Positions 32,532 to 46,763 of a DNA stretch of 64,000 bases are shown one piece after another (within the stretch, counting starts at the first letter, position 1; every line of letters begins with the position of its first letter). The DNA is taken from NCBI GenBank assembly GCA_025041175.1, contig JAKCFJ010000004.1, positions 310,001 through 374,000 of the forward strand, written 5' to 3'. Below the pieces are notes generated by a model. The model did not search any database. It was given only the letters and a program-made list of their open reading frames with translations, and was not told the DNA's origin. A program made the translations under genes and the position numbers. The stretch comes from Halobacteriales archaeon YIM A00010. GTDB taxonomy: Archaea; Halobacteriota; Halobacteria; Halobacteriales; Haloarculaceae.

Positions 32532-33578
32532 ATGACTATAGACGATCGTATTACATCCGTGATATCGTCCCTCTTCTCGGAGAGGACTAATGTTACGTAT
32601 GAAGTGGCAGACGGATCGACGTTGGGGTATACATATGTCATCGAGGTTGATGACGGCAGCGACCAAGCGTCCTATGTGTTGAAACTGGCCAAGACAGATG
32701 CAGAGGACAAATTACCGTTTTATCGCACCGATCATACCGGTCAGGCTGCCATCGACGCGATGGCCGTTGAGGCAGCCCTCCTCGACCGTATCGCTCACCA
32801 GACGACTGTTCCAGTTCCACGGGTGCGTGAGGTTGACCTCTCGCCAGATGAACCTCTCCATCCATACCTGCTCCTCGAATGGGTTGGAGGGACTCCTTTA
32901 AATCTCGTCTCAGATAGTCCAGGAGATACCTGGCAACGATATCTCTCCGAGATAGGGCACAACCTCGCAACGCTTGGTGATACCGTCCAGTTTCAGCAAT
33001 TCGGATCGCTCAGAGTCCGTGATGACACGGTTAGCGTGAAGGATAATCACACAACCTGGACCTCCTGGATGGATACCCAGTACAACACGTATCTTCAACG
33101 GCTTGAAGCAACCCCTCTCGCAGATCTGGCAGCGGATATTACTGCCTGGTACCAAGAGCGACGGGAGCAACTCCCGACGCAGCCCGCATCAGTCTTAGTC
33201 CATGATGATGTCCATCTAGCGAACTTCTTAGTGAATACGGAGCCGAATAAAGCGCCATTAACAGCGATAATAGACTGGGAAGAGGTGGTAGCCGCGCCAC
33301 GTGAGTTCCAGGTCGCACGGATGGAGTACTCGTTGTTTGTGGCTGGCGATATCGACTCATCGATTGGACCACAAACGCGAGAGTGGTTCCAGAATAGCTA
33401 CTGGAGCCATTCATGCAGTCACCGGGAGGACTACAATGAGCGCCGACCGATCTATCACCTTCTAATCTGGCTTCGAATGGCGGGCAACCTCCGGTTTGAC
33501 GATGATGTCACCGATAGAATGAAAGCGACGATCGAACGAGCCCTCCGTGAAAAATTCGATACCGTACGTACGAGCTGA
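32532..33578 (+). CDS. aminoglycoside-phosphotransferase-fold kinase
   Basis: 348 residues of the APH/choline-kinase fold. The N-lobe has SYVLKLAKTDAEDKLPF (ATP-binding Lys), the hinge LLLEWVGGTPLNLV, the catalytic loop VLVHDDVHLANFLVN (H-D-x-x-x-x-N) and the metal-binding AIIDWEEVVAAPREFQVARM (D-W-E). All catalytic residues are present, so it should transfer phosphate to a small molecule or peptide. It converges on the LanM gene with only four bases between stop codons. In the RiPP context it could be a resistance or tailoring kinase; that is inference. Confidence 0.85.
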   Translation: MTIDDRITSVISSLFSERTNVTYEVADGSTLGYTYVIEVDDGSDQASYVLKLAKTDAEDKLPFYRTDHTGQAAIDAMAVEAALLDRIAHQTTVPVPRVREVDLSPDEPLHPYLLLEWVGGTPLNLVSDSPGDTWQRYLSEIGHNLATLGDTVQFQQFGSLRVRDDTVSVKDNHTTWTSWMDTQYNTYLQRLEATPLADLAADITAWYQERREQLPTQPASVLVHDDVHLANFLVNTEPNKAPLTAIIDWEEVVAAPREFQVARMEYSLFVAGDIDSSIGPQTREWFQNSYWSHSCSHREDYNERRPIYHLLIWLRMAGNLRFDDDVTDRMKATIERALREKFDTVRTS

Positions 33579-33582
33579 ACCA

Positions 33583-36500
33583 TCACTCATAGAGAAGCAA
33601 ACACGGAACATCTGTTGGATATTGATGTCGTAGCAGGACATATCCGATACCGGCAGTCCCCATGAATAAAGAGGGATTGTATAATGTCGGCGTATGACCG
33701 GGTAAAGCAAAACACCGGTTCTCCTCTGCACGCGCTAGCACATTGCGAAGCAAACGATTCGCTTTCTCTCGATGTGAGTTCTCGTTCGTATACTCGGCGG
33801 CACGAAGGAGGAAATCGATCCGTCCTGCATTGCCACAGCACAGCTGATCGGGCGTTCCGTCACTCGTGGGTGATGTTTGGGCTACTGCGATGGCGAAATC
33901 CTCCTGGACCAGCTGACGATCGGTGATCTCTGCGATACCAAGGCGTGAAAGGCCAATACCGGAGCGGCCATAGCACCACGCATCCACGTATCTCGGGGAG
34001 TCACCTCGTATATCTGGCCAGTTCTGCCGGTCACTCGAATATGTTGTCTGTTCGTATCGGAGTCCCTCTTCAGCTGCTTGTCTGAAACGGTCATCGTCAC
34101 ACACATCAAACAGACGGTAGAGGGCGTACGCGATCCCAGCTGCTCCATGGGAGAATCCGGTCAAAGGGCGTGAACCGAGAGTGCTGGGCCACGCTCGGTA
34201 TGGCGTCCCGGTATCACATCTGTTCTGCAGAAGATGATCACCACAAGCGATCGCTTTGCGTAAGATCCACTCCTCATGACGGAGGTTGTATAATCCGACG
34301 AGCGAGAGTAACAACCCCGCACACCCGTTCATCACATCAAAGTTAGTATCGTTCGTTATACGATCTGCTGTGAGCTGGTGGGCTACCACCTCCGCATCAT
34401 CAACGATTCCAGGCCGCTCCAATAGTTGACCGACCTTGCTCAACGCATAGAGATGCGAGCCGATTCCGTTACTAGTGCCGAGATTGGCGCTCGATAGTTC
34501 GTTATTGTGTACCTGGTGGCGAAGTGGTGTGAGAGCTTTGATGGCCTTCTGCCGGGTATCTGGGCCCGACAGAACGTTGTGAAGCAATGCGAAAAAGATC
34601 GCGATTCCTGCACGGCCCGTATAAATCCCATTATCAGAGACAGTTATATCCAACTGACGATTGTTGCTGTACTCCCGAATGATCCAACTCACATGTCCGT
34701 CCTGATCGATGTTCGCTCCCTGGGAGATTTGTTTCGCTATTCGCTGTATGTACTCGTTGAACGCGTAGTCTGAGGCGGATGTGAGCGGGGAACGCTGATC
34801 CTCTACCGGACGGATAGCGTGTCCAGCAGTGACCGGGGGGATCTCTGATGCACAGGACGTTTGGATATAATCCAGTTGCTTCGTCAGATCGTCATCGTCT
34901 AACGACTGTATCTTTTCAGCGACTCGATCCCACCCAGACACACCAGCTAATGCAGCAATATACGATCCGTCAAAGTGTACTTCATCAGCGGACAATACAA
35001 AGCGTGGTACATCCAACCGGACGAGTGCAGCTCGCTCTGCCTGGTATATCTTTTGTCGTGTACTGTTGTAATCTCCGTCGAAGGTCCGATCGGCAATGAG
35101 ATGTTCAAGGTGGAGCGTTACCGTTTCCCCATCTCGAAGCGCATCTGGGGCGGTTATCGAATCGAGAATCGACGCATACGTGTGTGTTTGTCCGAATAAG
35201 ACACGGGTATCTACGCCATCAAGCGGTGAGAGAACGTGAGGGTTCTCCCTGATGTACGTATAAACGTGCTCAAATCCACGTTTGATCTCGTCTACATATT
35301 CTTGTGGCGGTTCGATGGTGCCATTTAGTCGAGGTACGTTTTTCGTATCCTCCATCTCGATAGATGATGTTTCCCGCTCGACGACATCCATCGTATCCCG
35401 ATTGATGTTCTTCCACCACGTTGGACTACTGAGATCCTCCGTTTCTGATAGCGTTGGAAGCTGAAAGCCGCTAATATTCACCTCAGTATCGCCGGTTGGT
35501 GAGTCGGATTTCCGGGGGAGAAGCCCCGTCCACATCACGCTATCAATCGTTTCATCTTCTACCAGCGATAGCCCCTCATCGCTGTTGATTAACGGATGTA
35601 CTATCGTCTCCGCATCAACAATTACTGGGTGTGCCCCATTCGCGATAACATTTTCAAAATGGCAATCATTTAGATATGTCATATATGCTACTCCGAGGAG
35701 CATCCCCGCCCGTTTGTAATACTGACTAACCTCCTGAGACGTTGTGCATTCAGTATGAGAGATCCATTCAACCCAACCATACCCCTCCCTCGGTAAGCAG
35801 ACCGGAGTCTTCAGCTCGCAACTGGCTCTACTAGCGAGCTCATCCACAAGAGCGGCATATTTTTTCTCGGGTTCAATACTTCTCGGTTTATATACCACAT
35901 TCGAGTTCGATGAGAGAACCACGTGGATGACGGACCGACCATCGTGGTGGCGATCATCAGTAAGCACGTTGAGATCGGAGATCGTCGTTATTTCATCGGC
36001 TGAAGCAAACATAGCCCGGATCTCGGTCCAATCTTGGTCGAGTCGCTGGTGGAATTCCTGTATAGCAGCTATCCACTGGTTGACTGTTGTTACAATGAGT
36101 CGAGCTAAGACTGGATACTCCATAAAGAACGATTGCAGTCCATCGACCGTACGCATCTTTGCGACGAATTCGGTATAGAGCTGTGTCGGATCCTCTCGAT
36201 TGTTGGTGTCTTCTGTACTGAGCAAGGAAGGCGTTCGCAACATCCGAAATGTACTAAATTCCACATGGATCGCTTCGACGGAAACATCAATAAGACGGTC
36301 TATCAGCCACTCTTTTGCAGATTGAACGGCTGTTTGTGAAAACCGGTCGACGTTCGTCCGTAGCAGTAATTGCTCATACCCATAGGCGACAAACGGTTCT
36401 ATAATATCCACGAATGGAGAGAGGTCGCTGTCATGGTGGATCTCGATGGCACTCTTATCGATAAAAGTAATGAGTTCGTCAAGCTCATGCACCCATGCTG

Positions 36501-36786
36501 GAATGTCTATATCCTCCGGCCACTCATCCATTGAAATACATTCTCTACACACTCGTTCTGACATTCCCTCATCCAGAAGACGCCTTTTGAATGTCTCTTG
36601 ATCACCATCAGTGACTATCTCAGCCCACTCGGTGAAGAATTCATCTACGTCATCGGTCGCTGCCTCGTCGGAAGCGAACGAGTCCCACCTCGATTTCTTA
36701 TATGTATCAATACGCTCGAATAGAGTTTGACTTTGCCAAGCGATATATCGTTGTTCCTCTTTTTCGAAGACATTATTTTCGCCCAT
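33583..36786 (-). CDS. lanM: class II lanthipeptide synthetase (LanM)
   Basis: 1067 residues, a normal LanM length. The N-terminal dehydratase (DUF4135 type, kinase-like) shows VVYKPRSIEPEKKYAALVDE near residue 297, and YLNDCHFENVIANG with VIVDAETIV near 370-385. It phosphorylates and eliminates Ser/Thr of a precursor. The C-terminal LanC cyclase shows GFSHGAAGIAYALYRLFD (~880), DAWCYGRSGIGLSRLG (~936) and QLCCGNAGRIDFLL (~983). Zinc ligands are therefore Cys, Cys and Cys/Gly in a C-C-G motif rather than C-H-G; the C-C-G group includes the substrate-tolerant ProcM type, which uses Nif11-like leaders as found here. The gene is AT-rich compared with neighbours. Confidence 0.95.
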   Translation of the reverse strand: MGENNVFEKEEQRYIAWQSQTLFERIDTYKKSRWDSFASDEAATDDVDEFFTEWAEIVTDGDQETFKRRLLDEGMSERVCRECISMDEWPEDIDIPAWVHELDELITFIDKSAIEIHHDSDLSPFVDIIEPFVAYGYEQLLLRTNVDRFSQTAVQSAKEWLIDRLIDVSVEAIHVEFSTFRMLRTPSLLSTEDTNNREDPTQLYTEFVAKMRTVDGLQSFFMEYPVLARLIVTTVNQWIAAIQEFHQRLDQDWTEIRAMFASADEITTISDLNVLTDDRHHDGRSVIHVVLSSNSNVVYKPRSIEPEKKYAALVDELASRASCELKTPVCLPREGYGWVEWISHTECTTSQEVSQYYKRAGMLLGVAYMTYLNDCHFENVIANGAHPVIVDAETIVHPLINSDEGLSLVEDETIDSVMWTGLLPRKSDSPTGDTEVNISGFQLPTLSETEDLSSPTWWKNINRDTMDVVERETSSIEMEDTKNVPRLNGTIEPPQEYVDEIKRGFEHVYTYIRENPHVLSPLDGVDTRVLFGQTHTYASILDSITAPDALRDGETVTLHLEHLIADRTFDGDYNSTRQKIYQAERAALVRLDVPRFVLSADEVHFDGSYIAALAGVSGWDRVAEKIQSLDDDDLTKQLDYIQTSCASEIPPVTAGHAIRPVEDQRSPLTSASDYAFNEYIQRIAKQISQGANIDQDGHVSWIIREYSNNRQLDITVSDNGIYTGRAGIAIFFALLHNVLSGPDTRQKAIKALTPLRHQVHNNELSSANLGTSNGIGSHLYALSKVGQLLERPGIVDDAEVVAHQLTADRITNDTNFDVMNGCAGLLLSLVGLYNLRHEEWILRKAIACGDHLLQNRCDTGTPYRAWPSTLGSRPLTGFSHGAAGIAYALYRLFDVCDDDRFRQAAEEGLRYEQTTYSSDRQNWPDIRGDSPRYVDAWCYGRSGIGLSRLGIAEITDRQLVQEDFAIAVAQTSPTSDGTPDQLCCGNAGRIDFLLRAAEYTNENSHREKANRLLRNVLARAEENRCFALPGHTPTLYNPSLFMGTAGIGYVLLRHQYPTDVPCLLLYE

Positions 36787-36802: not shown

Positions 36803-36957
36803 AAGAAGTCCTCCTTGAAATTGTATGCGCTTATTTACTCCATCATCCCACCGTATGGTACTGCCCTACAGATTTGAGGCGGTCACGAGTCTCCACGCTA
36901 AATTTGATGGTCAACTATCCCGTAAATACTAGTAACCTGTATTCATATAGTGAAGTA

Positions 36958-38505
36958 ATGAATGTGACTGAGAAGCAGGCAGCTGTGCTGAACATTCCAA
37001 AAATACGATACCCGTGTAGCTCACGGACGAAAAACCGGATAGCATTCTACTGGAATCCGTCGCGGAAACGTGGCCTGTATGTACATGATTTAGAGAGTGA
37101 TGAGACACAGAAGCTCACCGATTGTGGGTTACGAACTCGGTCCTTTGCGGAGGATTTCCTCTGGGGGAACGACGGAGAGCGTGTCTTCTACATCCGGACG
37201 CGTGGGCGTGGAGATTTTGACGGTCCATTCGATCTCCAAGAGAAAACTATCGAAACGGACGCACCGGCAACGACTGTCTTCTCGGATACCAGCGTCTTTG
37301 TCTTAGAAGACATGCATCCCGAGCGAGACGAACTGTTGGTCAGTTATCGTCGTGGCCGCAGTCAGCTCTACCGGCTCACGCTGTCGACGAACCAGGCTGA
37401 ACCGGTGAGCGACCATCTCTTGGTGCGGAAGGCACGCTACAGTCCTGATGGTGAGTGGATTGCCATCAACACAGCCTATTCTGAGACAGCCCCCAATGAA
37501 CAGCTCCAGACAGCTATTGTCACAGACTCGGGGGCGTCGCACAGTGAGTCTTTGACCAGCGATCCAGTCGAATTTGTCAAGTGGCATCCCTCGAACAACC
37601 AACTGCTGATCAAGGCAGCCGATGATCACGACCGATTCGGCGTGTACGATGTGACAAGCGATCGGCTTCGATGGATTCAAACAGAGGTTCCCTACTGTCA
37701 ACCAATTGATTTTCTCCCGTCTGGTGATGACATTCTCGTGCTTCGGGATGGGACGCCCCACATCTATCCTGTCGAAGAGAATGCGACTGGGTCGAGCATC
37801 CCTGGTGTGAGTACGACCTCAGTCACAGCAGCGACGGTGACCGATCGGTCACTCGTCTTTCAACAGCACGACACAGAAGGGAACGCGTCTCTCACCCAGT
37901 ATCACAGGGATACCGAGGAACAGACACCAATCCTCACCTCGACACCGGGCCCAGGTGCAGAGTATCGATCACTAGTCACGGACGTTGCAAAGCAACTTGC
38001 TCGAACGTCACGTATCGATGAGAACAACCGGATGATGGTTCAGACAGTCCACTCAGCCGAGCGTGAAGCGCTGTCTCCACTCCTTGCTGAAGGCTTCGAC
38101 ATCATCGGTGCGGGCTTAGGCCGTCTGGTCCTCCGGTTTCCGGAGACATCGGAGGCCTCTGACTACGTGTTGAAACTAGCCCGATTCGGTGATACATCCC
38201 TCTATGCCGGTTCGATTCAAAACCAGTGGGAAGTCACCGTCTGGGAAGCGCTTGCTGCCCAGGATGAGGTGCCGCTACTACCCATCGAAAATTATCAGGA
38301 ATTGAGCTATCGGTGGATAGTAGTACCGTATGGCGACCCGATCACTGACTATTCACTGCACCGGCAATTGGATGTAGTCGAACAATTACAGACGGAGTTA
38401 GCGGACGTTACATATCTAAACACATTCGATATTCACCGCAACAATATCGTCCGCTATCAAGATGCTCACTATCTCGCTGACTATGGCCGACCACTCATGG
38501 ATTAG
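36958..38505 (+). CDS. beta-propeller protein fused to a kinase-like fold
   Basis: 515 residues from MNVTEKQAAVLNIPKIRYPC at 36958 (a longer frame from 36874 is less likely). Residues about 20-330 are propeller blades like those of S9 peptidases or TolB: KRGLYVHDLESDETQKLTDC, FLWGNDGERVFYIRTRGRGD, KARYSPDGEWIAINT. There is no alpha/beta-hydrolase peptidase domain after it. Instead the last ~130 residues look like a small kinase fold: SDYVLKLARFGDTSLYAG, WIVVPYGDPITDY, LNTFDIHRNNIVRYQ and ADYGRP (like D-x-H-x-x-N and D-F-G). It lies head to head with LanM. The combination is unusual, its target unknown. Confidence 0.7.
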   Translation: MNVTEKQAAVLNIPKIRYPCSSRTKNRIAFYWNPSRKRGLYVHDLESDETQKLTDCGLRTRSFAEDFLWGNDGERVFYIRTRGRGDFDGPFDLQEKTIETDAPATTVFSDTSVFVLEDMHPERDELLVSYRRGRSQLYRLTLSTNQAEPVSDHLLVRKARYSPDGEWIAINTAYSETAPNEQLQTAIVTDSGASHSESLTSDPVEFVKWHPSNNQLLIKAADDHDRFGVYDVTSDRLRWIQTEVPYCQPIDFLPSGDDILVLRDGTPHIYPVEENATGSSIPGVSTTSVTAATVTDRSLVFQQHDTEGNASLTQYHRDTEEQTPILTSTPGPGAEYRSLVTDVAKQLARTSRIDENNRMMVQTVHSAEREALSPLLAEGFDIIGAGLGRLVLRFPETSEASDYVLKLARFGDTSLYAGSIQNQWEVTVWEALAAQDEVPLLPIENYQELSYRWIVVPYGDPITDYSLHRQLDVVEQLQTELADVTYLNTFDIHRNNIVRYQDAHYLADYGRPLMD

Positions 38506-38671: not shown

Positions 38672-38932
38672 TCAATGACAGGAAGCCCCACCGCACGCCA
38701 ACGTATCGCACGTAGATGATGAGTCCGCTCGTTTATCGACCTTCTCGTCAATCTCGTGGTCGGGGAGATTTGCTTCGACGAATTCTTTAATCGCAGATTC
38801 AAGTTCGTCGTGGCTAGCCCTATAGTCCTCCTCATGGGCGACTTCTACAATACCGTTTTCTTCGACCGCCTGTTGAAGACGCGAATTGGCTGACAAGGAC
38901 TGAACGAACGACTGCGCATCTGATGCCGACAT
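38672..38932 (-). CDS. lanthipeptide precursor with Nif11-like leader
   Basis: 86 residues. The leader (about residues 1-68) starts MSASDAQSFVQSLSANSRLQ and continues QAVEENGIVEVAHEEDYRAS and ELESAIKEFVEANLPDHEID, the helical pattern of Nif11-type RiPP leaders (F-x-x-x-L-x-x-N-x-x-L; then A-x-E-x-x-Y/F). After VDKRAD comes a short core, SSSTCDTLACGGASCH, with three Cys and six Ser/Thr, able to form up to three (methyl)lanthionine rings. No double-Gly site is evident before the core; cleavage could occur near K-R-A-D. It sits 1.9 kb from lanM. No other substrate for LanM is seen in the window. Confidence 0.85.
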   Translation of the reverse strand: MSASDAQSFVQSLSANSRLQQAVEENGIVEVAHEEDYRASHDELESAIKEFVEANLPDHEIDEKVDKRADSSSTCDTLACGGASCH

Positions 38933-38955: not shown

Positions 38956-38963
38956 TTATAAAC
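38956..38963 (-). promoter_or_regulatory. TATA box of the precursor gene
   Basis: On the minus strand TTTATAAG lies about 28 bases before the ATG at 38932, in an AT-rich region with flanking poly-T. This is the spacing of leaderless haloarchaeal mRNAs and indicates that the precursor is transcribed on its own. Confidence 0.65.
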
Positions 38964-39374: not shown

Positions 39375-39460
39375 GAGCACGAACGTAGTGTTCGGGGGGG
39401 CGGTTGGCCGCCCACGCGACGTCGAGCGAGACGGTAGCGTCGTCCAACCCACTTTTGGCG
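39375..39460 (-). pseudogene. scrap of a Gfo/Idh/MocA oxidoreductase
   Basis: The minus strand reads DATVSLDVAWAANRPPNTTF and VLHGEDRS. The intact oxidoreductase at 43453 reads DTTISLDVAWAANRPPDTTF and VVHGTEAG at the same place, so this is a roughly 85-bp piece of a close relative, stranded next to the IS605-type end. Confidence 0.75.
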
Positions 39461-39561
39461 GTCGCTCAGATCGATCCGGTGAAGCGTCTGATGCTTCACT
39501 CCTGGAACGATACCTGATTATTAGAGAGACGATTAAGTATATCAAACAATACAGTTCGTAT

Positions 39562-40047
39562 ATGTCGTTGCCATCCGTGGACGAGTTGCGTCCGACTGAG
39601 ATAGCGTTACTCGAAAATGAAGAAATGTTGGTGAGTACCCATCCGAGCTGGTTGAACTGGTTGGAGCTACTAGTTATTGATGCGTTTCTCGTGGTGGTAG
39701 GCCTCTTCGGACTGCTTGGGGATACCATTGGGACCTCTCTCCTGCTGTGGTTCCTTGCGGTCCTTCTGGCGGCGTACGTGTACATCCATCGTCTGTCTAG
39801 CCACTATACTATCACGACAGACAGAGTTCATAAACAGATCGGCTTGTTCCACCAGACCACCAGCGAAGCACGAATCGCTGATATCCACAGCCTGTCAACC
39901 GAGGCATCATTCATCGAACGGCTGTGCGGGCTGGGAACGGTCCAGATCGACAGCACTGGAGCGGCGGGACTTCTTTCGTTGGACAATTTGCCCAACCATA
40001 GGCAGGTCGCGAACACGATCCGGGAACAACAAAACGTCGCAGAGTGA
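39562..40047 (+). CDS. membrane protein with bacterial PH domain (YdbS-like)
   Basis: 161 residues from MSLPSVDELRPTEIALLENE at 39562. Two membrane helices follow (LELLVIDAFLVVVGLFGLLG and SLLLWFLAVLLAAYVYIH), then a bPH2 domain: YTITTDRVHKQIGLFHQTTS, EARIADIHSLSTEASFIERL and GLGTVQIDSTGAAG. The Y-x-I-T-x-D-R...R-I-x-D-I motif is typical. In haloarchaea these are inner-membrane proteins of unknown role; some are near peptide-antibiotic immunity genes. It lies within the lanthipeptide block. Confidence 0.85.
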   Translation: MSLPSVDELRPTEIALLENEEMLVSTHPSWLNWLELLVIDAFLVVVGLFGLLGDTIGTSLLLWFLAVLLAAYVYIHRLSSHYTITTDRVHKQIGLFHQTTSEARIADIHSLSTEASFIERLCGLGTVQIDSTGAAGLLSLDNLPNHRQVANTIREQQNVAE

Positions 40048-40782: not shown

Positions 40783-42705
40783 TCAGCGACCAGTACGTGT
40801 CGTATCCATGTCGATGGTACGTTCGAGGAACGCTTCGGGGAGCTCGTCCAGCTCGCCGACCTGGACCCGCCAGAGGTTTGCATACAATCCATCGTGCGCC
40901 AGGAGGTCCTCGTGGGTGCCCCGTTCGACGATCTCGCCATCGTCGAGGACGAGAATGGTATCGGCGTGGCGCACCGTCGAGAGGCGGTGCGCGATGGCGA
41001 AGGTGGTGCGGTCGGCGCTGAACTCCTGCAGAGCCGTCTGAATCAACACTTCCGTTTCGTTGTCGACGTGGGACGTCGCTTCATCGAGAATCAACAGCTC
41101 CGGATCGGTGATGATCGCACGTGCAATGGCGATCCGTTGGCGCTGGCCGCCCGATAGCTTTACGCCGCGTTCGCCAACCTCGGTGTCGTAGCCGTCCGCC
41201 AGTTCCACGATGAAGTCGTGGGCACCGGCCATCTGTGCCGCTCGCTCGATGTCAGCCTGGGCAACGTCTGGTGTACTATAGGCGATGTTCTCACTAACCG
41301 TGCCTGAAAACAGGAACGGTTCCTGGGCGACGTAGCCGATCGCTGCCCGGAGATCATCGAGCGCGATCGAGCGCAGCTCATGGCCATCGAGACGAATCGT
41401 TCCCCCATTCGGGTCGTAAAACCGGGGGAGAAGCTTCGTCAACGTCGTTTTTCCCGATCCTGTCGGCCCGACAAGTCCCACGAACGCCCCCGGTTCGACC
41501 TCGAAATTGATCTCCGTGAGTGCTGGCTCGTCGTCAGTGTCATATCGGAAGGTCACGCCCTCATACTCGACCCGACCGTCGACATTGCTAAGCGAGAGAG
41601 CGTTGTCCTGGTCGTTGATCTCGATCTCGTAGTCGTTGAGCGCGAAAATGCGGACCACTGAGGCCCGCGCGTCGTGATACAGATCGACCAAGTGACCGGC
41701 TTGGATCAGTGGTCCCGTGAACTGCCGATTGTACGTGAGAAACGCCACGAGCGTGCCGACCGACAGCGGCTTCGTGAAGAACAACGGTGGACCGTCAAGT
41801 ATCCAAACTCCACCGATCACCACCAACACGCCAAAGCCGAGCCAGTTGACGACGTTCATCGCCGGGAAGAAGCTGATGCGCGTGGTGATCACGTCCCACC
41901 GGATATCGAAGAGATCGTGAGAGGCACTATCGACGCGGGTAGCCTCGAACGGCTCGGCGGTATAGGCTTTCACCACCGCGATCCCACTCAGACTGTTCTC
42001 GATGCGCGCGTTGAGCACGCCTACGCGCTGGCGAACGTCGTCATACAGTGGTCGAATGCGTCCGACGAACCACCGGCTCAGCACAGCCAGCACCGGTACC
42101 GGTAGCAACGCGATGAGCGCAAGTTGCCAGTGCAGATAGCACAGAAATGCGGCGATGCCGATGAACTGGGCACCGATCTGGAGCAGATCGTCCAGAAATC
42201 GCTGCAAGAGGCGGTTGAGCTCGTTCACGTCGTCGTTGAGAATGCTGAGGATTTGGCCGGTCTGCTGGTCGTCGAAAAAGGCGATCCCGAGCCGCTGGAT
42301 CTTCTCGTAGGCGTCGGTTCGCACGACGTGTTGAACAGTCTGAGCGAATCGGCCCCACGCCCAACTGCTGACCCAGCCGAGCCCGGTGCTCGTCACTGCG
42401 GCACTCACGATGAGCCCGACCGACAGCAACAGCTGTGCTCGTGGCTCCGGTGGGAGCCAGCCCCCGGGGACACCTGGGAGCGAAAAGGCCGTGGTGTCGA
42501 GAAACACCCCGTCGATCAGGACCTTCAGGAGATACGTCGGCACGAGACTCGCGAGTGGGGAGAGCACCGACGCCACCAATGCGAGCCCAATGAGCGTTCG
42601 ATGATCGGGACCGTACTCCCAGAACAGCCGTGGAATCGGCCAGTCGGTCGTCTCTTGGTGGTCTTCGAACAGCAGCGAGTCGTCGTCTGTGTCGTCGTTC
42701 GTCAT
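40783..42705 (-). CDS. ABC exporter (fused membrane and ATPase domains)
   Basis: 640 residues from MTNDDTDDDSLLFEDHQ at 42705. This start overlaps the stop of the upstream gene (ATGA), so they are coupled. The first ~330 residues form a six-helix exporter membrane domain (LIGLALVASVLSPLASLVPT, LLSVGLIVSAAVTSTGLGWV). The ATPase has Walker A GPTGSGKTT (~415), signature LSGGQRQRIAIARAI (~517) and Walker B LLILDEATSH. It is MsbA/LmrA-like. No N-terminal C39 peptidase is present, so it would export a peptide without cutting a leader. Its position makes it the likely lanthipeptide exporter or immunity pump. Confidence 0.88.
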   Translation of the reverse strand: MTNDDTDDDSLLFEDHQETTDWPIPRLFWEYGPDHRTLIGLALVASVLSPLASLVPTYLLKVLIDGVFLDTTAFSLPGVPGGWLPPEPRAQLLLSVGLIVSAAVTSTGLGWVSSWAWGRFAQTVQHVVRTDAYEKIQRLGIAFFDDQQTGQILSILNDDVNELNRLLQRFLDDLLQIGAQFIGIAAFLCYLHWQLALIALLPVPVLAVLSRWFVGRIRPLYDDVRQRVGVLNARIENSLSGIAVVKAYTAEPFEATRVDSASHDLFDIRWDVITTRISFFPAMNVVNWLGFGVLVVIGGVWILDGPPLFFTKPLSVGTLVAFLTYNRQFTGPLIQAGHLVDLYHDARASVVRIFALNDYEIEINDQDNALSLSNVDGRVEYEGVTFRYDTDDEPALTEINFEVEPGAFVGLVGPTGSGKTTLTKLLPRFYDPNGGTIRLDGHELRSIALDDLRAAIGYVAQEPFLFSGTVSENIAYSTPDVAQADIERAAQMAGAHDFIVELADGYDTEVGERGVKLSGGQRQRIAIARAIITDPELLILDEATSHVDNETEVLIQTALQEFSADRTTFAIAHRLSTVRHADTILVLDDGEIVERGTHEDLLAHDGLYANLWRVQVGELDELPEAFLERTIDMDTTRTGR

Positions 42706-43406
42706 CGATGTAACAGACACTCCATGACGGCGTTGTGATAGGCGCAGTCGGCATACGCATCGAGCGCCGGGAGGTCCCAGCGGGCAGCACAGTCGGCGAT
42801 CAGCTGTCGATTCTTCTTTCCGATTGTAATCGCCCGTTCATATCCGTCAACGGAATCGTCGTGTCGCCGAGGCACGAACGTCACGTAGGCGAGCTCCTTT
42901 GCCTGAATCAGTCCTTCTGCGACGAGTTCGCCCGGTTGTAGGTACGGGGAGCTTGTGCTGAGGAAGTATTCGATGTCCGCCTGTGGATACCCAAAAAAGC
43001 ACCCGAGTCGGCGGTGATACGCGGTGGAGGCTGTCCGGTTGTCCGTGGCCGGAAGCAGATCGAACCGCCACGGAGTGGTTGTGACAAACAGTTCGTGCTC
43101 GCTCCACCACCGGTAGGGGAGATCGAACGTTTGGGCGACGACCTCGATCGGGAAGGCCGATGACGGAGGGGTATCGTTCTCCGGGTCAAGTGGGTCGACA
43201 AATTTCGTAATGCTGGCGGCGGGTTTGGCTCCTCCAAGCATGAGCGCCAACCAGAGCGGTTCGTGACCACTCGCTCGACTGTCATACCGAGCGATAAGAT
43301 ATTGTTCAAACACCCAGCGTTGGTGGGCCGTCATCGATTCCAACACACCGTTAGTCGGTCGGTGCGATACTGCCTTATATTGTTGATTATCTTTCGTAGA
43401 TGCCAT
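42702..43406 (-). CDS. protein of unknown function coupled to the ABC exporter
   Basis: 234 residues. No signal peptide. Noted pieces: VLESMTAHQRWVFEQYLIAR, GHEPLWLALMLGGAKPAASI, YHRRLGCFFGYPQADIEYFL and CAARWDLPALDAYADCAYHN. The L-G-C-F-F-G-Y-P-x-x-D-I-x-x-F stretch recalls DUF3793-type proteins, but the match is short and weak. It overlaps the ABC exporter gene by four bases. The coupling suggests that the two act together, for instance in peptide recognition or immunity. Confidence 0.7.
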   Translation of the reverse strand: MASTKDNQQYKAVSHRPTNGVLESMTAHQRWVFEQYLIARYDSRASGHEPLWLALMLGGAKPAASITKFVDPLDPENDTPPSSAFPIEVVAQTFDLPYRWWSEHELFVTTTPWRFDLLPATDNRTASTAYHRRLGCFFGYPQADIEYFLSTSSPYLQPGELVAEGLIQAKELAYVTFVPRRHDDSVDGYERAITIGKKNRQLIADCAARWDLPALDAYADCAYHNAVMECLLHR

Positions 43407-43452: not shown

Positions 43453-44529
43453 TTATTGTGCTGGGACTGGAGGTTCCGTCCCTATCTCTTCACGCTCACT
43501 CGACTCGTAAATGGCGTCGAGCACCTGCTGGGTCGTGAGCGCCTGTTCAGGTGTGGCGAGTGGCGTGTCGGCGGTGGCGATAGCGTCGACGAACAGCTCC
43601 TGTTCGATCCGGTGGGCGTCATCGTCACGGGTCGTGATCGTGCTATCCGAAAAGTGTGGAGCACCGCTGGCGTTGGTCTCGAAAATCGTCAACTCCCCGG
43701 TCTGGAGATCGAGCCGCGCCCCTGCTTCTGTCCCGTGGACGACGAACGTCGTGTCGGGCGGACGATTGGCTGCCCACGCGACATCGAGCGAGATCGTCGT
43801 GTCGTCTCCACACCGGATGAATGCGCTGGCAGAATCGTCGACATCGAACGATCCGTCACCTTCCGATCCGTGCATGTCGAGATACGTGTACTCCGACCGG
43901 TCGCCAAACACCGATCGCGTCACACCGGAGACGTCCGTCACCGCTGGAAATTCGAGCAGGTACAGCGCAAGATCGATCGCGTGCGCCCCGATGTCGACGA
44001 GCGCACCACCGCCTGCTGCCTCTTTCTTCGTGAACCACGAGCCACGACCGGGAATCCCGCGTCGGCGGAGATAGTTCGCCTCGATGTGGTACACGTCACC
44101 GAACCGCCCCTCATTGAGATAGCTCATCAGCACGTCGACGGGCCGGGCGACTCGGTTGTGAAACCCGACTCGACAGACGGACTCGGCGTTCTGACTCGCG
44201 TCCACGATGTGCTGTGCGCTCTCGATGGTGTGGGCGAGCGGCTTCTCGATGAGCACGTCGAGATCTGCCGCCAACGCGTCGACCGCGTACGCCTCGTGAT
44301 ATCGGTTCGGCGTCGTGATGATCACTGCGTCGACGTGGTCGTACAGCGCCTCGTGCGACTCGAATGTCGGTACGTCGAACCGTGTCTCGAATCGTTCCCG
44401 GGCACGAGGAGCAATATCCATCCCCCCGACGAGTGTGGCCGTCTCTTGGCTGGCACGGAGCGTTAGCTGCTCGGCATGATGACGACCAATACTTCCAAGA
44501 CCGACGATACCGATGGACTGTTTACTCAT
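43453..44529 (-). CDS. Gfo/Idh/MocA-family oxidoreductase
   Basis: 358 residues from MSKQSIGIVGLGSIGRHHAE at 44529, a Rossmann G-x-G-x-x-G. The family's EKPLAHTIESAQHIVDAS (E-K-P-x-x), GGGALVDIGAHAIDLALYLL (D-x-G-x-H) and RRGIPGRGSWFTKKEAAGGG follow. Such enzymes oxidise or reduce sugars or cyclic polyols with NAD(P). Its start overlaps the end of the zinc-containing gene at 44522 (8 bases), giving a two-gene operon. It could modify a cofactor or sugar; a link to the peptide locus is not proven. A scrap of a relative lies at 39375. Confidence 0.9.
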   Translation of the reverse strand: MSKQSIGIVGLGSIGRHHAEQLTLRASQETATLVGGMDIAPRARERFETRFDVPTFESHEALYDHVDAVIITTPNRYHEAYAVDALAADLDVLIEKPLAHTIESAQHIVDASQNAESVCRVGFHNRVARPVDVLMSYLNEGRFGDVYHIEANYLRRRGIPGRGSWFTKKEAAGGGALVDIGAHAIDLALYLLEFPAVTDVSGVTRSVFGDRSEYTYLDMHGSEGDGSFDVDDSASAFIRCGDDTTISLDVAWAANRPPDTTFVVHGTEAGARLDLQTGELTIFETNASGAPHFSDSTITTRDDDAHRIEQELFVDAIATADTPLATPEQALTTQQVLDAIYESSEREEIGTEPPVPAQ

Positions 44530-44800
44530 TAGCCTGCACCTCAGCGACGAACCGCTCGAATGCCTCCAAATCGAGCATGAAACACCATCGACAGTAGGAA
44601 CACCGGAGATATCGGGTGAGCGCACTCGGCGTCTCGACTGCCATCGGGATCGTCTGCTCACAACGGGGGCGAGGACAGACGACGCCGAAGCAGAACTTGT
44701 GTGCTGGCGGGTCGGTCATCCCGTGCTCGAGAGTGAACTCACTACAGTACTTTTCTGGTCGGATTGGCCGGCGGAATAGCTCCTCATTACTCGTTGCCAT
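44522..44800 (-). CDS. small zinc-binding protein
   Basis: 92 residues from MATSNEELFRRPIRPEKYCS at 44800. Three Cys pairs are visible: YCSEF/HKFCFGVVCPRPRC and RYLRCSYCRWCFMLDLEAF. It looks like a zinc ribbon or a small electron-transfer-like module, but the family is unknown to me. It precedes and overlaps the oxidoreductase, so it may deliver or regulate that enzyme. Confidence 0.65.
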   Translation of the reverse strand: MATSNEELFRRPIRPEKYCSEFTLEHGMTDPPAHKFCFGVVCPRPRCEQTIPMAVETPSALTRYLRCSYCRWCFMLDLEAFERFVAEVQANE

Positions 44801-44988
44801 TATCCCCACCGCCCCGGTCGTCGCCCGACCGCTCTGTCAGGGCATACTTTCGGAACGAACCAGTGTCGTCCATGATCTCTTTCTTTGGCGTGGGGTGCCG
44901 TCTCGATACTCGTTTTATTTGGTTGTATCCTGAAATGTGTCATTGTTCGATCAGCTGTATGTAGTTATGGCACTCACACACCCTGATG

Positions 44989-45012
44989 CGGAGTCGAACC
45001 GCACTGCTCCAA
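44989..45012 (-). repeat. tRNA T-arm-like repeat, copy 1
   Basis: On the minus strand TTGGAGCAGTGCGGTTCGAC followed by TCCG contains a perfect T-arm: TGCGG-TTCGACT-CCGCA (5-bp stem, 7-base loop). There is no acceptor stem or anticodon arm around it, so it is not a tRNA gene. An almost identical 24 bases occur at 47229-47252. Confidence 0.6.
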
Positions 45013-45042
45013 ACAGGGCAAATCCGTGGGGTAGGCAGCAGA

Positions 45043-45978
45043 TCACTCATCATCAAGGAATGCTTTGTATCCGTCTCGCACCGTCTTGGCAGTCACATTC
45101 GCAACGTTCCCAATCTCTCGTTGAGTAAACGAGTCGTCTGAATCGTCTAGGTGCTGTAAGGCAGTGTACAGCGCGGCGGCGGCCAAGCCGGCTGGACATC
45201 GCCCATTCGTAAACGGGGTTCCAATCACGTCTGTGAGGAGATCACGAGCCCGCCGATGGACAGCTTCCGAACAGTTGAGCTCGGACACAAATCGTGGCAA
45301 GTACTGTCTCGGATCAGCAGGCTTGATGACTAGATCGAGCTCGCTCGTAATTGCCCGATAGGCACGGCCGATGCGTTTGCGGTCGGCCTGGGCAACGGTC
45401 GCCATCTCATCAAGCGTCCGGGGGATATCCTCCTGTCGCGCGGCGGCATACACCGTGGCAGTCGACATTGCCTCGATTGTCCACCCAGCCAGAAGTCCCT
45501 CAGCATGAGTGCGCCGATAGAGGACACTCGCCGTTTCCCGTACCGATTGGGGGAGTCCAAGGGTACACGCTATCCGGTCGATCTCCCCGAATGCCTGTTT
45601 GAGATGGCGATCTGTGGAGTCTCGATCTTGATACCGGTCGTTCCACTTGCGAAGGCGTTGCATCCGCTTGCGCTTGTTCGCAGACAACGGATTGCCGTTG
45701 GCGTCTCGATTCTGCCAGCCGATGGTCGTCGACAGCCCTTTGTCGTGGAGCGTCTGCGTCGTTGGCGCACCGACACGGGATTTCTCGTCGCGCTCGCTCG
45801 CATCGAACGCACGCCACTCGGGACCGGGATCGATCGACTCCTCTGAGCAAACTATTCCACACTCACTACATCGTCTCTCACCGCGTTTCGGATCGTGCTC
45901 GATCCGACCGTTGCACTCTGGGCAGTTCTCCAGAGGGCGGTCGGTTCGAGCGTGTGCCACAGATGCTCTCTCAGACAT
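45043..45978 (-). CDS. tfb: transcription initiation factor TFB, copy 1
   Basis: 311 residues. The N-terminal zinc ribbon is NCPECNGRIEHDPKRGERRC with SECGIVCSEESID; the B-reader linker (GPEWRAFDASERDEKSRVGA) and two cyclin-like repeats follow (RHLKQAFGEIDRIACTLGLP, SVRETASVLYRRTHAEGLLA; CSEAVHRRARDLLTDVIGTP). TFB recruits RNA polymerase to TATA/BRE promoters. Haloarchaea carry many TFBs for distinct gene sets; this one is about 70% similar by eye to the copy at 48156. Its ATG is 2 bases from the stop of the aspartoacylase-like gene on the same strand, so both are one unit. Confidence 0.9.
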   Translation of the reverse strand: MSERASVAHARTDRPLENCPECNGRIEHDPKRGERRCSECGIVCSEESIDPGPEWRAFDASERDEKSRVGAPTTQTLHDKGLSTTIGWQNRDANGNPLSANKRKRMQRLRKWNDRYQDRDSTDRHLKQAFGEIDRIACTLGLPQSVRETASVLYRRTHAEGLLAGWTIEAMSTATVYAAARQEDIPRTLDEMATVAQADRKRIGRAYRAITSELDLVIKPADPRQYLPRFVSELNCSEAVHRRARDLLTDVIGTPFTNGRCPAGLAAAALYTALQHLDDSDDSFTQREIGNVANVTAKTVRDGYKAFLDDE

Positions 45979-45980
45979 CG

Positions 45981-46763
45981 TTAGCCAAGGGTGCCAGTTC
46001 GCTCGGCGGCATAGCCGAGCTGCCGTTCGTAGCCGGTCTCCGACATGAGAACAGGATAAAACCGGTCCTCTGCGACCAACATACGGTCGTTCATGGATGC
46101 GTACGGTGTCCCAGCAAGCACCGGTTCAAAGTTCCGGACAAGCACGTCACAGTCTCCCGTTCGATATTTAGGGATTCGCTCACGCAATCGATAGGTGGGA
46201 ACGCGATGTTGCTCGACAGAAACGTCTGAGAGAGCGCCTGTGATAGTGAGAAACTCCTTCACAAGCCGAGCAGCGTTTACCGCTGCCTGGTCGGTCCCTT
46301 GCAGCCCACACTCAACCTCGATCACGGGCGTATGATGAACCAGTGTCTGTCCGATAAGATTCCCCGTCTCGATAACCCCCTGCATCGAGAGGAACGGACA
46401 GATCCCTATTGCGAGCGAATCGATTGTGTCGACAATTGCAAACGGTCGTTCATCCGATTGGGTCGAATGCATCGAGAGCGTCAGACATCCCTGTAACTCC
46501 TCTAAGAGCTCTGCTGCCAGCCGTTCCTCATACGTCTCGGCATCGGGATCGCCAGGGAACGAGCGATTCAGATCGGTTTCGGTGTAGCGGACATTCTGAT
46601 CGAGCGCACGCTCGTTGACGGTGATGCACTTGACCGCCTTGGTGACGGCTGGTTGCTCGTCGAGGAGCTGTTCGATCGCATGTACTCCACACGGCTCGTC
46701 ACCGTGAATCGCACCGACGATCGCTAGCCGTGGTTCTGTTTGGCCAAGTGTCTCAACGCGCAT
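45981..46763 (-). CDS. succinylglutamate desuccinylase/aspartoacylase-like enzyme, copy 2
   Basis: 260 residues from MRVETLGQTEPRLAIVGAIH at 46763; the start is fixed by similarity to copy 1 (MRVEQLGEGEP). Motifs: GAIHGDEPCGVHAIEQLLDE, ERALDQNVRYTETDLNRSFP, TLSMHSTQSDERPFAIVDTI and TPVIEVECGLQGT. All metal ligands are present. The protein resembles copy 1 at 13258 over its full length. It overlaps the preceding gene by 11 bases and is followed by TFB copy 1. Confidence 0.85.
   Translation of the reverse strand: MRVETLGQTEPRLAIVGAIHGDEPCGVHAIEQLLDEQPAVTKAVKCITVNERALDQNVRYTETDLNRSFPGDPDAETYEERLAAELLEELQGCLTLSMHSTQSDERPFAIVDTIDSLAIGICPFLSMQGVIETGNLIGQTLVHHTPVIEVECGLQGTDQAAVNAARLVKEFLTITGALSDVSVEQHRVPTYRLRERIPKYRTGDCDVLVRNFEPVLAGTPYASMNDRMLVAEDRFYPVLMSETGYERQLGYAAERTGTLG

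Follow-up and report, generated by a model that had tools for sequence, protein, structure and literature searches.

Class II lanthipeptides are already established in archaea (PMC10105419, PMC12144867), with 110 archaeal LanM synthetases and 24 products described (PMC12144867), and the statement in a preliminary description of the DNA studied here that archaeal lanthipeptides are few is thus outdated. A short-leader motif of haloarchaeal precursors has been printed as Kx(Y/F)(D/E)xx(F/Y) (PMC10105419). Nif11-type leaders have been reported only with CCG-type LanMs (PMC10027976), a pairing for which a Nostoc plasmid provided a direct example. In the literature and genomes that we searched, Nif11-type leaders linked to a LanM were bacterial, and haloarchaeal LanA precursors had a different, short leader. 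Main-text literature yielded no Nif11-type archaeal lanthipeptide; the precursor described below may already figure in supplementary precursor lists. We analyzed a 64,000-nucleotide stretch of DNA (the window) from Halobacteriales archaeon YIM A00010 (genome of 5,969,888 bases in 7 contigs), situated on a contig of 812,767 bases, in which a putative precursor with a Nif11-like leader, here termed lanA, was likewise found together with a CCG-type LanM.

The lanA reading frame is located on the minus strand at 38672..38932, runs from ATG to TGA (38932 down to 38672), and would encode a peptide of 86 aa with the C terminus SSSTCDTLACGGASCH, as had been proposed. An orthologue of the same length, 69% identical, gap-free and with an identical stop position, was detected in YIM A00013 (G004:C3:82432-82689). 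Nucleotide changes between the two genes numbered 21, 11 and 35 at codon positions 1, 2 and 3, respectively, and over the whole ORF a dN of 0.197 and a dS of 1.076 were obtained (dN/dS ∼0.18); the corresponding dN and dS values were 0.183 and 1.072 for the leader and 0.265 and 1.093 for the core, all of which indicates purifying selection. In a random 16-mer of this composition, at least 3 Cys together with at least 6 Ser/Thr would occur with P ∼4.5e-6 (for one window, uncorrected for the choice of the C terminus). Because of the gap-free orthologue, the dN/dS pattern and this rare composition, the ORF is more than a chance frame, and conservation identifies lanA as a genuine coding gene. The TATA box suspected near the ATG was recovered as a TATA-like TTTATA at position −30 (38957..38962, minus strand), with TTTTTAA at −33 in the orthologue, a spacing consistent with a leaderless transcript. 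No match to the precursor was found among plasmid and phage sequences or among PDB sequences. Its distribution was narrow: within the family, the precursor was carried by 2 of 146 genomes, 5 of the 7 genomes examined in the genus had no copy, and a sample of 392 genomes of the order gave 2 clear matches plus a marginal one in a third genome, within a 462-aa frame.

The putative core comprises residues 71 to 86 (38672..38722 including the stop codon, minus strand), with Cys at positions 75, 80 and 85 and Ser/Thr at 71, 72, 73, 74, 77 and 84. In the orthologue all three Cys were identical, as were the Ser/Thr at 71, 72, 73, 74 and 84, and position 77 showed a Thr/Ser swap; the remaining core differences were confined to positions 76, 78 and 83. 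Directly before the core lies the proposed processing motif K67-R68-A69-D70 (38723..38734, minus strand), of which R-A-D was identical in both precursors and position 67 was K in one and R in the other (RRAD in the orthologue). The leader does not end in the double Gly expected of a Nif11-type precursor; the sole Gly-Gly is located within the core, at residues 81 and 82. For comparison, precursors at other haloarchaeal LanM loci were recovered independently of their published sequences. One of them ended in HRD-GCGFTCSPFSSWG and contained the published archalan alpha core, and another, STCTY-GGGMDKRA-CPTCDF, contained both published larlan fragments. Since haloarchaeal cores are known to follow HRD or DKRA, KRAD in lanA is likely to be a similar processing context. 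The preliminary description had considered the core possibly new on account of KRAD and the missing double Gly; the latter turned out to be not unusual among published cores, and the unusual element is instead the Nif11-like leader.

Natural-product precursors are not the only proteins with Nif11 domains. One could therefore read lanA as a small Nif11-domain protein whose Cys-rich tail serves metal binding or regulation and which is no substrate of the LanM, and the three Cys together with the terminal His could indeed bind metal. However, lanA is conserved together with the LanM in both genomes and its Ser/Thr positions are kept like its Cys, so that we consider this reading highly improbable and treat residues 71 to 86 as a candidate lanthipeptide core.

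The leader (residues 1 to 70; 38723..38932, minus strand) had been described as Nif11-type and about 68 residues long; both points were borne out, the length as 68 to 70 residues depending on the cut and the resemblance as a weak one. TIGR03798 matched residues 1 to 62 of lanA with 22.8 bits (E 7.9e-5), below its curated cut-off of 32.3 bits, and Pfam Nif11 matched with an E of 0.011; the orthologue alone gave no NCBIfam match and an E of 0.16 with Pfam Nif11. A custom Nif11 HMM was built from six bacterial leaders (Nostoc, Pseudanabaena and Mesorhizobium plasmids) and run against 5,293 ORFs (30 to 200 aa) that were collected from the window, from the surroundings of haloarchaeal LanMs and from one further stretch of the YIM A00010 genome. 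It ranked lanA first (3.6e-6) and the orthologue second (1.1e-4), followed by a next best hit at 0.15. Moreover, hhalign aligned the leader with Nif11 at an E of 2.8e-6 (probability 88), and a low-confidence structure prediction placed helices at residues 4 to 14, 17 to 26 and 34 to 55. Taken from sequence comparisons, the homology to bacterial Nif11-type leaders appears weak but real, with a resemblance that is reproducible. No match exceeded the cut-off when the Nif11 family was searched for in 392 genomes of the order; lanA topped the eight weak matches, and the other seven lay within longer open frames. Among the genomes searched, the leader is thus an unusual feature, recognizable only in lanA and its one orthologue. 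The motif K-x-x-[YF]-[DE]-x-x-[FY], which typified short leaders of the precursors recovered by us, was absent from both, as was the printed form. Those precursors had one extra residue between K and [YF] compared to the printed motif, which in its literal form had no match near ten LanMs. The largest ORF cluster near haloarchaeal LanMs (76 members) was discarded as spurious low-complexity ORFs.

The synthetase gene lanM (33583..36786, minus strand) encodes a predicted class II lanthipeptide synthetase of 1067 aa (TIGR03897, E 2e-234). The positions corresponding to the established LanM active site were conserved, and a CCG-type zinc site was recognized at C938, C983 and C984 plus H880, within which the CCG motif reads DQLCCGNAGR; hence, dehydratase and zinc cyclase residues both appear intact. 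In YIM A00013, a 61% identical LanM adjoins the lanA orthologue. The claim that lanA is the substrate of the LanM at 33583 is supported by this co-conservation of leader- and core-bearing precursor and synthetase in two genomes, by the kept catalytic and zinc residues and by the published rule that couples Nif11-type leaders to CCG-type LanMs (PMC10027976), and lanA is thereby supported as a class II lanthipeptide precursor. In a midpoint-rooted tree of 44 LanMs with a small bacterial sample, lanM and its orthologue (100/100) split first within the haloarchaeal clade (100/100), and the grouping of all other haloarchaeal LanMs was weaker (82/69). The presence of a Nif11-like leader on the deepest haloarchaeal branch of the sample suggests a route of entry into archaea in which a CCG-type LanM and a Nif11 leader may have arrived together, other lineages having exchanged the leader afterwards. 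Across the order, LanMs turned up in 35 of 293 genomes. Two haloarchaeal LanMs lacked the cyclase zinc ligands (L037/L066, WSYG with LADG; L039/L011, WLAG with LYAG).

The window and 20 kb surrounding the lanA orthologue shared a block of four genes, namely, lanA, a propeller-kinase gene, lanM and a gene of the APH family, which were 59 to 69% identical and differed in gene order between the two loci. In both genomes, lanA and the propeller-kinase gene were convergent. The propeller-kinase gene (36958..38505, plus strand; likely ATG at 36958, with the ORF opening at 36874; orthologue 67% identical) would encode an S9-peptidase-type beta-propeller fused to a kinase-like domain, a reading which rests on sequence, as the structure model is of low confidence (pLDDT 46). 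Its propeller part matched haloarchaeal ORFs of mostly ∼600 to 700 aa, one of which (L085) is probably an S9-type peptidase, judged by a GGSYGGYS motif that the fusion does not have; the kinase-like domain stands where the S9-type hydrolase domain would be. Kinase-like motifs were kept (K434, D519-x-H521-x-x-N524 and D536), and the C-terminal part matched a small stand-alone ORF elsewhere in the YIM A00010 genome (E 5e-36). The fourth gene (32532..33578, plus strand; PF01636, E 6.8e-20; orthologue 59% identical) encodes a putative APH-family kinase/phosphotransferase, homologues of which adjoin the second LanMs of YIM A00010 (complete) and YIM A00013 (fragment).

The conservation of the APH gene with lanA and lanM, its recurrence beside other LanMs of the genus and the catalytic motifs kept in both kinase-like proteins would also fit a pathway in which the LanM shares its substrate with one or both cassette kinases, the APH protein phosphorylating core Ser/Thr to give a phosphorylated or jointly dehydrated product. 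A precedent is CaoK, an APH-like protein that phosphorylates precursor Ser/Thr in class V (PMC9486802). Yet the LanM itself has a complete kinase-like domain, the conserved genes include no HopA1-like class V lyase, and self-protection would account for the APH gene equally well, as some proteins of this family inactivate antibiotics; on balance, we regard such an action of one or both kinases on the peptide as unlikely. Even less probable is a decaying cassette without a product. Broken LanMs do occur elsewhere in the genus, where the second LanM of YIM A00010 is interrupted by a TAA at codon 645 and the copy in G001 is truncated, but all four cassette genes are intact in both genomes and the dN/dS of lanA is low (∼0.18). 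Modification of lanA by an intact LanM is our preferred reading.

Several neighbouring genes were considered separately. An MsbA-like ABC gene (40783-42720) was rejected as a cassette member, as it had no match at the orthologous locus, and neither a protease nor an exporter was found in the conserved four-gene cassette. A bPH_2-domain ORF (39388-40047) adjoins the cassette, and bPH_2-like ORFs were recognized by eye near the orthologous cassette (L030:6670-7660); although near both cassettes, these neighbours had no mutual match at E 1e-6 and were not adopted as immunity genes. Oxidoreductase and TFB-like genes (43456-46125) had 83% and 61% identical copies, respectively, on contig C5 next to the second LanM (L032:4680-7449). 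The second YIM A00010 LanM at that locus (L032:8144-11266; G000:C5:20323-23265) has its in-frame TAA between its halves; immediately upstream lies a LanA-like ORF (L032:7962-8099) ending in STCLSTNISCDD, and an APH homologue follows immediately downstream.

In the proposed pathway, an inference for every step from leader binding to ring formation, cutting and export as well as for the activity and biological role of the peptide and the functions of both kinases, the LanM would bind the Nif11-like helical leader, and its kinase-like domain would phosphorylate some of the six core Ser/Thr and then eliminate the phosphate. The zinc cyclase domain would couple the resulting dehydro amino acids to Cys75, Cys80 and Cys85, forming up to three (methyl)lanthionine rings, and a protease from outside the conserved cassette would cut at or near K-R-A-D to release a peptide of ∼16 residues. 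For the APH-family protein and the propeller-kinase fusion, the probable task would be self-protection or an additional modification of the peptide. As a whole, this course, in which lanA is the substrate of the nearby CCG-type LanM and is dehydrated, ringed and cut near K-R-A-D, appears very probable to us.

YIM A00013 has been reported to form hyphae and spores, and YIM A00010 is described as hyphae-forming in the same paper (PMC10067837). It is conceivable, if decidedly speculative, that hyphae-forming haloarchaea use the peptide as a developmental signal, equivalent in archaea to the morphogenetic lanthipeptides SapB and SapT, and that it is made by a LanM system which retained an ancestral Nif11-type leader and recruited two kinase-like proteins. 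Since the precursor is absent from most of the genomes examined in the genus, it would be no universal requirement for differentiation, provided that those organisms differentiate as well. Irrespective of its role, the core offers a small, defined target for haloarchaeal expression, for which Haloferax volcanii has served as host (PMC12144867), and the two conserved kinase-like partners would be further components of an archaeal peptide pathway.

Compared to known systems, the cassette shares an APH-family protein with the gene sets of class V lanthipeptides such as cacaoidin. These combine an APH-like kinase with a HopA1-like lyase and have no LanM, whereas here a LanM is present and no such lyase was seen among the four conserved genes. 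With the cyanobacterial Nif11 systems (prochlorosins; Nostoc sp. ATCC 53789, locus L080), the cassette has in common a Nif11-type leader and a CCG-type LanM, but it differs in having one precursor rather than many, no double-Gly leader end and no C39 peptidase transporter. In core and synthetase, the cassette resembles the haloarchaeal archalans, larlans and medlans (PMC10105419, PMC12144867), which are LanM-dependent and have short cores preceded by HRD or DKRA instead of a double Gly; moreover, most haloarchaeal LanMs sampled were of the CCG type, like lanM. In contrast to the largest recovered haloarchaeal LanA family, whose members span 37 to 69 aa and have a short leader, in most cases with the motif given above, lanA encodes 86 aa, has a Nif11-like leader in place of that motif, and is accompanied by a LanM on the deepest haloarchaeal branch sampled.
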